From Candidatus Electrothrix rattekaaiensis (GTDB lineage Bacteria > Desulfobacterota > Desulfobulbia > Desulfobulbales > Desulfobulbaceae), in NCBI GenBank assembly GCA_032595675.1, contig JAVQMD010000002.1:930001-994000 (forward strand): a DNA stretch of 64,000 bases. The letters run 5' to 3'. Positions 6,140 to 19,932 of this stretch are shown here, piece after piece. The position numbers and the translations under genes were made by a program. Below the pieces are notes generated by a model. It saw only the letters and a list, made by a program, of their open reading frames with translations. It was not told the origin of the DNA and did no database searches. Numbering within the stretch: the first letter of the stretch is position 1; each line of letters opens with the position of its first letter.

Positions 6140-6509
6140 TACCCCCAGATCAAGGCGGAACAGTGCATCATCGGTTACGGAACCGCCCATGCAAGGCTCT
6201 TGTAAAATGTGGTGAGAATCAGCTCGAATTGCAGACATGTCCGGGCTGTTATTGTTTTGACAGGGAGCCGATGGGGAGGCTGTTTCTTGACCAAACTAAG
6301 CCAAATAGGTTATCATCTGTCATAGAAAAATGGAAAAACGAGCTCCGCATTGCTGTTTGGCCGCTGTCAAGGCATTGATCGACGCAGGCACAACAGTACG
6401 CACTACGCATTCTGCCCGTGCCGGGGCAGCAGCTCTGGGGTTCGATTATTTTATTCCGTCCGCAAGGACTGGCAGACAGCAGCCGTCTCAAGGTTGCAAG
6501 GAGGATGTC
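6140..6509. other. Remnant DNA without an intact gene
   Basis: A short open stretch next to copy B reads NDYPQIKAEQCIIGYG, then a stop. It may be a trace of another TA gene. The rest up to 6509 has open frames but no start with a ribosome binding site and no recognisable protein. Confidence 0.35.
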
Positions 6510-6779
6510 ATGCAATTGAATATAAATGATATGCTTTTGAAAAGAGCGCAACAAGTCAGCGGTCTGCAATCCGCTCAGGCTGTCATCGAAGCTGCGCTGC
6601 ACGTTTTGATTGCTCAACGATATCAAAGTGCATCCAAATCCAGAAGGCTGGAAAATCCCCTGAAACTGTTGCTGGAGTCGGATTTTATCGGCTGTGCCAA
6701 CAGTGACGAAACCCGCCTTTCACAAACCTATAAAAACGAGCTGACCGGAATTTTAGAGAAAAAATATGGTTATCGCTGA
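6510..6779 (+). CDS. vapB: Antitoxin of the second VapBC module
   Basis: 89 residues from the ATG at 6510, chosen because AAGGAGG lies six bases upstream (6498-6504); a longer reading from 6330 has no such signal. The N-terminus (MQLNINDMLLKRAQQVSG, then a helix LQSAQAVIEAALHVLI) looks like the short ribbon-helix-helix DNA-binding part of VapB antitoxins. The C-terminal half should bind the toxin. It overlaps the following PIN toxin gene by 14 bases. Confidence 0.78.
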   Translation: MQLNINDMLLKRAQQVSGLQSAQAVIEAALHVLIAQRYQSASKSRRLENPLKLLLESDFIGCANSDETRLSQTYKNELTGILEKKYGYR

Positions 6780-7218
6780 TACCGGTTTATGGGTTGCCTT
6801 GGCATATCCGAAAGACAAGCATCACGAATTGGCGAAACAACGTCTTGCCGAATTATCGGAGCAAAATGAACGGATGATTACGACCTGTGCGGTGATGACG
6901 GAAACCTGTCATTTACTGCTGGCAAGAGCCGGGATTTCCGCGCAGCAGAAGTTTATTGAAAAATATCGGCAGGGCGTGTTTTCCGTTTTCGAGTTGAATA
7001 CGGAACATTCAGAGCGGGTTGCCGAACTGATGCGAAAATACGCTGATCTGCCAATGGATCTGGCTGATGCGTCGCTGGTGGTTTTGGCGGAATATCTTGG
7101 TCATGGACGTATTCTATCGACGGATCAACGCGACTTTCATACCTATCGCTGGAAGAACCATCAACCGTTTGAGAATCTGCTGTTGACGGTAAATCCGGGA
7201 GCGGCGCAGCATGAATGA
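6766..7218 (+). CDS. vapC: VapC-family PIN-domain toxin
   Basis: 150 residues with the PIN acidic set: D5 in IADTGLW, the Glu in VMTETCHLL, the Asp in MDLADASLV and the Asp in ILSTDQRDF. It is therefore expected to be an active metal-dependent ribonuclease. It overlaps the antitoxin gene upstream. It differs in sequence from the VapC at 2696 and from the ones near the right end of the window, so these modules were acquired separately. Confidence 0.9.
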   Translation: MVIADTGLWVALAYPKDKHHELAKQRLAELSEQNERMITTCAVMTETCHLLLARAGISAQQKFIEKYRQGVFSVFELNTEHSERVAELMRKYADLPMDLADASLVVLAEYLGHGRILSTDQRDFHTYRWKNHQPFENLLLTVNPGAAQHE

Positions 7219-8347: not shown

Positions 8348-8735
8348 ATGACTGATCAAGTACAATATTGGGTTGAATTGTCAGAATATGATATTGAAAC
8401 AGCCCAAGCTATGCTGAAAAGTAGGCGATATCTTTATGTCGGTTTTATGGCCCACCAGTCTGTTGAAAAGATACTCAAGGCCTGTTACGTGAAAGGGCAA
8501 CGGCAAACCGGCTCCTTTTTCCCACAGTTTGTCTTACCTCGCAAAGAAGGCTGAAATTTATGATGCTTTTTCAGAGGACCAGCAACTTTTCATCGATATG
8601 CTCGAACCGATGAATATTGAGTGCAGATACCCGACGCACAAAGAGCAGCTGATGAGAAGTTTAACGGAAGAACAATGTAAAGCGATACTTGCAAATGCAA
8701 AGGAACTGCAACAATGGATAAAAAAGAGGCTATAG
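8348..8735 (+). pseudogene. HEPN-domain gene with a frameshift
   Basis: From the ATG at 8348 the frame gives a HEPN protein start (MTDQVQYWVELSEYDIETAQ, then MAHQSVEKILKACYVKGQRQT). At about 8508-8514 it shifts to another frame, which continues with PFSHSLSYLAKKAEIYDAF and ends WIKKRL at 8735. One extra base explains the break. It may be a real inactivation or a sequencing error. The 3' end overlaps the nucleotidyltransferase gene by 22 bases, the usual arrangement of a HEPN/MNT pair. Confidence 0.72.
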
Positions 8736-9022
8736 AAAAACTTGTACGATACAAGCATCTCCTGTCACAATATATGTCATTCGATAAAATGATGCTGTTC
8801 GGCTCTTATGCGCGGGGAACTCAACGGGAAGACAGCGATGTGGATGTCGCGATAATAGTTGATGAGATGCAGGGAGATTATTTTTCCACAAGACCGCTGC
8901 TCTGGAGAATCAGGAGAGAAGTGGCCGACAGGATTGAACCGGTTCTTCTCGAAACAAAACATGACCAAGGCGGTTTTCTGAAAGAAATAATGAAAAACGG
9001 AATTCTAATACAGGATTCCTGA
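8714..9022 (+). CDS. MNT-type nucleotidyltransferase of a HEPN/MNT pair
   Basis: 102 residues with GSYARG (G30-S31) and the metal pair SDVDVA (D42, D44); a third acidic residue may be in RIEPVLLE. Here the order is HEPN first, nucleotidyltransferase second, opposite to the MntA/HepT module at 5186. The enzyme looks intact although its partner upstream is frameshifted. Confidence 0.82.
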   Translation: MDKKEAIEKLVRYKHLLSQYMSFDKMMLFGSYARGTQREDSDVDVAIIVDEMQGDYFSTRPLLWRIRREVADRIEPVLLETKHDQGGFLKEIMKNGILIQDS

Positions 9023-9026
9023 ATAC

Positions 9027-9351
9027 GAGATAAAACTCTTTCCACCACCTTTTCGAACAGCAATACATCGTATTCAGGCGAAGACCATTCCTGCCTGCTC
9101 CGTATAATACTGCTCACCACCTCATCATTTTCCAGTTCAATATCATACAGCCCATCCTTCAGCTCTGTTATGATCTCTCGGTCCAGCGGATGATCAGCAA
9201 TGATCAAAAAATCCCACAGTCAGAATCCTGCCGGGTTGCATTGGCGGGCACGGGAACCGTGCAGAATGACTTTCGCATCAGGAAGCAGACGATGCGCCTC
9301 CCCCCGCACCTGATGCAAGATCTTGACCTGATTAACCAAATAAGTTACCAT
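9027..9351 (-). pseudogene. Decayed nucleotidyltransferase, copy C
   Basis: The most complete copy. It starts with the ATG at 9349-9351 (MVTYLVNQVKILHQVRGE), has the same frameshift between GSRAR and the DxD half as the other copies, and has a second two-base insertion next to SDxDF (near 9216). It then runs on through DREIITELKDGLYDIELEND to a C-terminus ending in FEKVVERV. Its 5' half lies in the 337-bp block shared with 4838-5172. Confidence 0.7.
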
Positions 9352-9402
9352 AAGAATATGGAAAAATGCCCCGCATATAAGATGAAACCGGAGAAGAACG
9401 TC

Positions 9403-9669
9403 ATGGTTACAGTGTACAGACAGGAAATCGCGGAATGGCTTCTGATGGAATACCATGCCGCTCTGCATACAGTATGCGAAAAAATACGGCTCTTTGAACA
9501 GAAATACAAGCAACCGTGGAATGAATTCAAAGAGCAGGTTGAACATGCTGAACAGGAAGACTTTTCCCGATGGGACGATTACATTGAATGGAAATCGCAG
9601 GTAAAAATATTTGACGAATTGTCCGTCAAGATTGAAGAGGTCAGGCATGGAAATTTCGAGATTGCTTGA
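9403..9669 (+). CDS. Probable antitoxin of a TumE-like module
   Basis: 88 residues from the ATG at 9403, chosen because GGAG lies nine bases upstream. The protein is helical, with a coiled middle (CEKIRLFEQKYKQPWNEFK) and a conserved-looking DDYIEWKSQ segment. It overlaps the next small gene by 23 bases. I recall similar small proteins paired with DUF6516-type partners, but cannot name the family. A 24-codon remnant of the same gene sits at 5101. The divergent nucleotidyltransferase remnant starts 52 bp upstream. Confidence 0.55.
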   Translation: MVTVYRQEIAEWLLMEYHAALHTVCEKIRLFEQKYKQPWNEFKEQVEHAEQEDFSRWDDYIEWKSQVKIFDELSVKIEEVRHGNFEIA

Positions 9670-9818: not shown

Positions 9819-9870
9819 GCCGTTTCCTTTTTGACTTGATTGACAACCCAATGATTCCAATGGTGTTCGT

Positions 9871-9942
9871 AAGCTCATCCGGATCAATCTCCTTCAAGCG
9901 ATTCCGCACCGGATCTTCCTTGGGTGGAAACAGGGTGAGCTG
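9871..9942 (-). pseudogene. Stray mutS 3'-end fragment
   Basis: 24 codons read QLTLFPPKEDPVRNRLKEID then PDEL, identical in protein to the C-terminal region of the intact MutS encoded at 10774-13455. By my alignment 15 of the 24 codons differ at synonymous positions and none changes the amino acid. QLTLF is the beta-clamp-binding motif of MutS. On both sides the sequence is unrelated to mutS. Confidence 0.8.
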
Positions 9943-10000
9943 ACTTAGTTCTTCAGTAGGCATGATGCGTGCCCTGCGCACCCTGCCTAGCTGTAGAGTA

Positions 10001-10495
10001 TTATTCTTTACATAGCTGCACGACCGCATGGGCAACCACGTTTACAGAAGCGGTCGTCTGAAAGGAGGTATGTGTGAAGATACTTGCACTGCCCATATTC
10101 TCGGCTTTAGCCGTGTAGCTGCCTGGAGCAAGGTCGGGCGGATCGTCTTCATCAATATAGAGATGCACCTCTTTTAATCCGAAACCTTCATGCATCAGAT
10201 AGATAACCTTGAGTTCTCCTTCGAGGTATCTCACTAAAAGTATACCCACCTCAGTGCCTTGAGTCATATCATTCTGTTCGGCATCGGCAACGAGAGGAAA
10301 GGATAACAACTTGTCACTTTCATTGACGGTAATCTGCCATCCCCCTCGGTGACCTAATGCGTATGCGGTTTCATGGCTGCATTCTGCTCCATCCGGGAAA
10401 TTGACTTGAAGTGCTGCTTGAGAGGCAAACGGAGTAGCGGCAAGTACAAAGGCTGCTGTAATAAAAATTTTTTTGATGGGAGCTGGAGTTTTCAT
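10001..10495 (-). CDS. Hypothetical exported protein under a GEMM-I riboswitch
   Basis: 164 residues with a clear signal peptide (basic start, hydrophobic core, ATPFASQAAL cleavage region near residue 27). The mature part is a predicted beta-rich domain with two cysteines, one near the start (AECSHE) and one at the very end (QLCKE). I do not recognise the family. AGGAGGAG lies a few bases ahead of the ATG, and a GEMM-type riboswitch occupies the leader, so expression should follow a cyclic dinucleotide. Products controlled this way in related bacteria are often surface or extracellular proteins. Confidence 0.75.
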   Translation of the reverse strand: MKTPAPIKKIFITAAFVLAATPFASQAALQVNFPDGAECSHETAYALGHRGGWQITVNESDKLLSFPLVADAEQNDMTQGTEVGILLVRYLEGELKVIYLMHEGFGLKEVHLYIDEDDPPDLAPGSYTAKAENMGSASIFTHTSFQTTASVNVVAHAVVQLCKE

Positions 10496-10529
10496 AACAC
10501 TCCTCCTGACGTTGTAGAAATTGAAAGCA

Positions 10530-10605
10530 GGTAACCCGGCTGTCTCTCTTTTGGGGAGACCCGTGGCTTTCCGACACCGCCTCGCGACGGCTGTGGCTTT
10601 ATCAA
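10530..10605 (-). ncRNA. GEMM-I (cyclic dinucleotide) riboswitch
   Basis: Read on the minus strand, the leader contains a stem GCCGUC / GGCGGU closed by a GCGA tetraloop, then GGAAAGCCACGGGUCU. A second stem GUCUC / GAGAC follows, then AGCCGGGUUACC. This order is the GEMM-I fold: a GNRA-capped P2, the conserved AAAGCC, P3, and the closing GGGUUACC. The 3' end lies about 30 bases ahead of the start codon. The position matching G20 of the Vc2 aptamer appears to be A, as in the cyclic AMP-GMP-sensing variants of Geobacter, but this depends on a hand alignment. Confidence 0.75.
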
Positions 10606-10650
10606 CTTTCCGGTTCTGCTCGTTCCAGAAAGCGTATTATGTAAAATAAC

Positions 10651-10706
10651 CTGCCATATAAATGAAGAGATTAATTCTCAGTTGGCTATAGTTATTTATA
10701 TGGCAG
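10651..10706. repeat. Perfect 13-bp inverted repeat between mutS and the riboswitch
   Basis: CTGCCATATAAAT (10651-10663) is mirrored by ATTTATATGGCAG (10694-10706) with a 30-nt spacer that holds a smaller inverted repeat (GAGA/TCTC). It lies behind mutS and ahead of the riboswitch on the same strand. It could be the mutS terminator, an operator, or the ends of a small decayed mobile unit. Confidence 0.5.
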
Positions 10707-19395: not shown

Positions 19396-19932
19396 TCAGT
19401 CGTCAAGTGTCTCTCGGCAGGCCGTGCTGAGTCTGCTTTGATTTTGTCCGCAATGCTTGGCTTGAAATAGGCGTATTTCAGCAAGGTTCATTATTGTTTT
19501 GATTGATGATCCAGGTACGGGCCAGAGGCTATGCCCCCCTATGCTGATCGTCACGACTTGGGCTACATCGGATTGCGCATGGGGAATGGCAAGGACGCGC
19601 ACCTCAGTGAGTATTCGATCAGTAATGATGAGTGTTTCATGGGCTTCAGTGTAGGGGAGCAGGATGGCGAATTGATCCCCCTCGTATCGAGCTGCCAGAT
19701 CTGTCGGGCGGCGGAGTGTCGTTTGGAGGCACTCAGCAATCTGCCCGAGGCAGGTATCACCCGCAGAACGACCATAGTGCTCATTGAATGGTTTAAAATA
19801 ATCAACATCGCAGAGCAGGAGAGAGAGCGGGTTTCCTGTTTTTTGCGCATTGAGCCAAGCTCTTTTGAGTTGCCTATCAAAATGACGCCGATTGGCGATG
19901 CCTGTTAAGCTGTCCTGATACTCCGATTTCAC
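19396..19932 (-). CDS. GGDEF-domain protein with degenerate active site
   Basis: 178 residues, only a GGDEF domain, starting at a GTG a few residues before the conserved DSLTGIANRRHFD. The active-site loop reads EGDQF instead of GGDEF/GGEEF. The inhibitory I-site RxxD (RPTD) sits exactly five residues before it and is intact. The substrate-coordinating CDVDYFKPFN segment is also present. It is probably unable, or poorly able, to make c-di-GMP, but may bind it. The absence of a sensor domain and the weak start suggest a 5'-truncated gene. Confidence 0.75.
   Translation of the reverse strand: MKSEYQDSLTGIANRRHFDRQLKRAWLNAQKTGNPLSLLLCDVDYFKPFNEHYGRSAGDTCLGQIAECLQTTLRRPTDLAARYEGDQFAILLPYTEAHETLIITDRILTEVRVLAIPHAQSDVAQVVTISIGGHSLWPVPGSSIKTIMNLAEIRLFQAKHCGQNQSRLSTACRETLDD

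Follow-up and report, generated by a model that had tools for sequence, protein, structure and literature searches.

A genuine RNA sensor of the c-di-GMP class lies on the minus strand of the window, by which is meant the whole 64 kb stretch of DNA that was analyzed, and it belongs to a lineage-specific set that has expanded to about 20 copies per genome. The reading put forward here, which we hold at a probability of about two in three, is that this element is a c-di-GMP-I riboswitch with a canonical pocket, that it is one of the expanded cable-bacterium set and that it acts as an OFF switch on translation, using a strand of its own leader. The identity of the aptamer, the G at position 20, the copy number and the covariation of the leader strand with the ribosome-binding site and with the hairpin arm are computed results, whereas the ligand, the OFF direction and the physiological role are what we infer. 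The host, Candidatus Electrothrix, is a cable bacterium, one of the filamentous, multicellular organisms that conduct electrons, which agrees with its earlier description as a relative of electroactive bacteria. In the open-licence literature searched, no paper on riboswitches or c-di-GMP regulation in cable bacteria was found. Relative to that literature, an upstream switching strand common to many leaders would be a novel, variant expression platform.

The aptamer, its pocket and its target gene

The element matches RF01051 (c-di-GMP-I, or GEMM-I) in cmscan with a score of 59.2 bits and an E-value of 4.9e-9. The gathering score of the family is 35 bits and the match, which runs from 10607 to 10527, spans the complete model (positions 1–87). 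It is the sole above-threshold RNA family match in the window. The preliminary description had called a GEMM-I riboswitch from the letters alone and had proposed this Infernal search, and the call is borne out by the score and by the full-length match. The strand, which was absent from that description, is the minus strand. P1b, P2 with its GCGA loop, P3 and AGCCGGGUUACC form a complete set in the expected order, and the GNRA-capped P2, P3 and AGCCGGGUUACC named previously are thus confirmed in the cmscan alignment. The coordinates of all features are collected in Table 1.

Table 1. Features of the riboswitch and its target gene, in window positions
Feature	Position	Strand	Basis
c-di-GMP-I (GEMM-I) aptamer	10527..10607	-	RF01051 59.2 bits, full model
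Target gene for an exported protein of 164 aa, no known family	10001..10495	-	ORF, profile and homology searches
Shine-Dalgarno region UCAGGAGG	10502..10509	-	sequence
Likely promoter TTGACA-17-ATATAA	10696..10724	-	by eye
Hairpin in the 5' leader, CUUUCUGG...CCGGAAAG, predicted to form without ligand	10606..10632	-	folding
Switching strand CUUUCUGG, complementary to CCGGAAAG and to the Shine-Dalgarno	10625..10632	-	covariation, shuffled-leader control
P1 5' strand GAAAGUUG; its GAAAG doubles as the leader hairpin's 3' arm	10603..10610	-	pair counts, 56 leaders
P1 3' strand CUGCUUUC	10523..10530	-	structural register; P1 pair counts, 56 leaders
GGCAGGU, possible but weakly supported partner of ACCUGC (10532-10527) when the hairpin is formed	10649..10655	-	hairpin-state fold
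Vc2 G20 equivalent: G (c-di-GMP type)	10597	-	CM model position 11; register agrees with PMC6274999 anatomy
P1b 5' strand CC, flipped vs consensus GC; pairs with GG 10571-10572	10595..10596	-	CM alignment

The aptamer match ends 31 nt before the ATG of the target gene (spacer 10526-10496). The encoded protein has a signal-peptide-like N-terminus and its Shine-Dalgarno (SD) sequence is AGGAGGAGUG, so that the location ahead of an exported protein also stands as previously described. Searches of Pfam and NCBIfam returned no family for the 164 residues. Homologs occur in few relatives, with 3 matches in the same genome, 3 in genome G003, 1 in G006 and 2 in G016. The likely promoter was missed by a consensus scan. 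Around the gene, a second copy of a 26-residue piece from the 3'-end of mutS (9868-9945, 96% identical protein) lies on the side of the riboswitch gene opposite to mutS itself and may record the insertion of a cassette. ORF pairs at 6330-7218 and 8714-9669 read, by eye, as a PIN-domain pair and a nucleotidyltransferase pair of the toxin-antitoxin type.

The pocket is canonical. The equivalents of G20, A47 and C92 of Vc2, the type example of the family, are G at 10597, A at 10570 and C at 10531 (model positions 11, 38 and 83), where the placement of A47 by an offset of 9 from the Vc2 numbering, and that of C92, is our own mapping. Posterior probabilities at the pocket are near 1 in the covariance model (CM) alignment. 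These residues point to c-di-GMP as the ligand. Relative to Vc2, the aptamer fold, the three-way junction and the pocket are alike, as is the location ahead of an exported protein. The differences are a P1b of CC/GG and not GC/GC in the window copy, an internal loop of ACA/GUC in place of AAA/GAC in the cable set and, in the cable copies, a predicted switching strand upstream of the aptamer.

The preliminary description placed an A at the position equal to Vc2 G20 and favored the cyclic AMP-GMP type. This position guides selectivity between cyclic dinucleotides (PMC9262584). In the alignment it is G, followed by CC at model positions 12-13, which pairs with GG at 36-37. In the solved cAMP-GMP aptamer, the pair C15-G40 is immediately preceded on its 5' side by A14, and A41 is the base that intercalates in the ligand (PMC6274999). 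By this anatomy, the specificity base is the one directly 5' of CC, which is G10597 in the window copy. An A at position 20 is ruled out by the alignment and the published anatomy together, and a G there in a proper alignment is the very result that the description itself had named as pointing to c-di-GMP. The A was probably obtained by aligning AAAGCC to AAAGC, with the flipped P1b overlooked.

It is very improbable that the window copy senses cyclic AMP-GMP as a member of GEMM-Ib, even though several features lean that way. The C-G pair directly 3' of its specificity base is like that of the Geobacter cAMP-GMP aptamer (PMC6274999). In addition, a Hypr-type GGDEF candidate is encoded in the genome, and G20 has been described as a selectivity factor and not a hard filter (PMC9262584). 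Against this, the window base is G where Geobacter has A, and G occupies the position in 20 of 21 genomic copies. The flip of P1b was ruled out as a cAMP-GMP mark because CC/GG accompanies G20 across the other Desulfobulbaceae, where the combination is common. Finally, one sister copy (L018) does carry A, which places both states of the base in a single genome. Many copies per genome and surface-related targets are general traits shared with the Geobacter riboswitches.

The expanded set and its leader

RF01051 matches number 21 in the genome, with about twenty near-identical copies, 9 to 27 in genomes of the same genus and 0 to 5 in other members of the family, with one exception at 9. The ACA/GUC core with G20 is present in 8/8 Electrothrix genomes and in 0/10 of the other genomes of the sample. 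Matches to the same-core pattern were found in Ca. Electrothrix aarhusensis, E. marina, E. gigas, Ca. Electronema aureum and Desulfobulbaceae MAGs, and related copies occur in G016, a genome from another genus of the same family. Many copies precede genes for exported proteins. The approximately twenty riboswitch-controlled genes, many of them for familyless exported proteins, make up a candidate list of surface functions.

Several copies have unusual surroundings. Those at L002, L009, L012 and L016 are followed by only a short reading frame or no clear one; some of these frames share similar short N-termini (MSSLFHSS, MKALFHSS) and perhaps represent decayed or short targets. In another Electrothrix genome (L154, G004 C1:4928300-4931500), three GEMM-I matches in tandem, separated by terminator-like hairpins, precede an ORF resembling a type VI secretion Hcp protein. 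A separate expansion, with 24 GEMM-I matches, is seen in a genome from another family of the same order (G030).

Upstream of almost all cable-type copies lies CUUUCYGG...CCRGAAAG or a closely similar sequence, the GAAAG of which runs into the aptamer. None of the inspected copies from non-cable Desulfobulbaceae showed this leader. CUUUCYGG is also complementary to the SD and its 5' neighbor, CCRGGAGG, with a mean of 8.04 of 9 positions paired in the best ungapped register, wobble allowed. Across all 56 leaders, cognate strand/SD pairing exceeds that of permuted partners with a z of 5.5. Permutation leaves some relatedness in these tests: with redundant sequences retained, a reverse-complement control deviated as well. 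In 19 non-redundant leaders (<75% identity), z was 4.1 for the strand and the SD (0/5000 permutations) and 2.7 for the strand and the hairpin arm (35/5000).

The other helices gave less. P1 strands permuted as whole duplexes produced no signal, and the permutation test for the GCAGGU:ACCUGC helix was not significant. RNAalifold on a MAFFT alignment recovered the aptamer helices only, which is expected since the leader helices are mutually exclusive. P1 in 39/56 leaders has G-C, followed in most by a U.U mismatch and in most by U-G (with variants U-A and C-G), then by G-C and A-U. The U.U mismatch inside P1, present in most copies, counts against the switch model. We interpret most of the remaining leaders as having one extra base in the junction, so that the fixed P1 register is displaced.

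The predicted switch and its alternatives

In the proposed mechanism, CUUUCUGG would pair with CCGGAAAG when ligand is absent, in a local hairpin that also ties up the P1 5' strand. Binding of c-di-GMP would stabilize P1, formed by GAAAGUUG and CUGCUUUC, and thereby break the hairpin. The freed CUUUCUGG could then pair with UCAGGAGG, covering the SD and turning translation off.

Folding was used to model the two states at 56 loci. The bound state was represented by forced P1 and P1b pairs as a stand-in for ligand, with ligand and tertiary contacts excluded. The ligand-free state was represented by a forced hairpin, as blocking the P1 positions apparently blocks the hairpin too. In free ensembles, the hairpin has a mean probability of 0.60 (median 0.72) and P1 a mean of 0.06. 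When P1 and P1b are forced, pairing of the leader strand with the SD, itself unforced, reaches a median of 0.87 and the median probability that the SD is unpaired drops to 0.03, from 0.34. In 46/56 leaders P1 closes the SD more than the hairpin does (Wilcoxon 3e-8), and the P1-forced state lies on average about 5.7 kcal/mol above the hairpin state. Dinucleotide shuffling of the leaders lowers leader/SD pairing from 0.75 to 0.25. Together, the forced-P1 folding and the shuffled-leader control predict that translation is OFF with ligand.

The window copy differs in its energetics. Without ligand, the P1/SD-covered form is calculated at -58.3 kcal/mol and the hairpin form at -56.8, with a P1 probability of 0.84. 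The two forms are thus nearly balanced in the model, with the covered form slightly favored. As the covered form is the predicted ground state, the dynamic range of this copy could be small or could depend on co-transcriptional folding.

The level of control is most likely translation for the cable-set copies, as predicted by folding and covariation. The closest aptamer sequences are those of the terminator-coupled c-di-GMP-I riboswitches in other Desulfobulbaceae, which also combine G20 with a CC/GG P1b. By eye, most of the copies inspected there have a U-tract terminator past the aptamer, built on the aptamer 3' strand. The cable set shows no intrinsic terminator and has the leader hairpin: inspection by eye showed none at cable-type copies, and a terminator platform considered for the window copy was rejected, as none was found. 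The cable set may therefore have changed from a terminator to leader exchange. The reuse of the aptamer 3' strand by these related terminators would read out ON, and this lends some weight to a c-di-GMP ON switch, in which ligand-induced P1 exposes the ribosome site or prevents another closed form. Several copies also have limited SD accessibility in the hairpin state. We regard an ON switch as unlikely, for the closing of the SD runs the other way in most leaders, as given above, and needs the real leader sequence.

Less probable still is that a real aptamer is accompanied by incidental leader pairing, with control exerted by P1 occlusion or RNA stability alone. The near balance of the window copy fits such a view and any pyrimidine-rich strand would pair somewhat with an SD. 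Nevertheless, the pairing extends beyond the SD core, covaries in non-redundant leaders and is three-fold above that of shuffled leaders, all of which argue against it.

A sister A20 riboswitch and a candidate Hypr enzyme

The single copy with A at model position 11 is L018 / L102 (G000 C2:1008362-1008439, minus strand). The exact A20 pattern has one match each in 4/8 Electrothrix genomes, every time with the same 124-aa exported protein after it. Residues held in common, NDCFKA and RCTI among them, set this protein apart from its G20 paralog group, to which the paralogous copy L008 belongs.

The published signature of Hypr enzymes combines a GGDEF motif with Ser or Thr at the PleD D344 position (PMC9140294, PMC6456294). 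A search of the genome for such an enzyme, as suggested by the preliminary description, returned one candidate. Among 13 GGDEF domains, only L098 (G000 C1:268769-269236, minus strand) has Thr at this position, in GHHAGTMLI ... ARFGGDEF, with the GGDEF motif intact, and the Thr is kept in 8/8 Electrothrix genomes. L098 is thus, by its signature residues, a candidate cAMP-GMP synthase. Its likeness to the Hypr enzymes GacA and Bd0367 (PMC6456294, PMC9140294) includes the lack of the usual NRR arginines, with NMK where most other GGDEF domains of the genome have NRR or NR; it differs in having Thr where these characterized enzymes have Ser. A further GGDEF domain, in the window at 19438-19920 on the minus strand, has the degenerate motif YEGDQF and is probably not a cyclase.

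It is possible, at odds somewhat worse than even, that two messengers are served by one riboswitch design. Here, the approximately 20 G20 copies would respond to c-di-GMP and the L018 group to cAMP-GMP made by the Thr-type Hypr GGDEF protein. If true, both kinds of riboswitch would exchange a leader strand between the P1 side of the aptamer and the ribosome-binding site. Through the conserved A20 copy and the Hypr candidate, cAMP-GMP signaling in cable bacteria is open to direct testing. A GEMM-I copy with A at the G20 position is also present at L026 in G008, a genome from another genus of the same family, and may be of the cAMP-GMP type.
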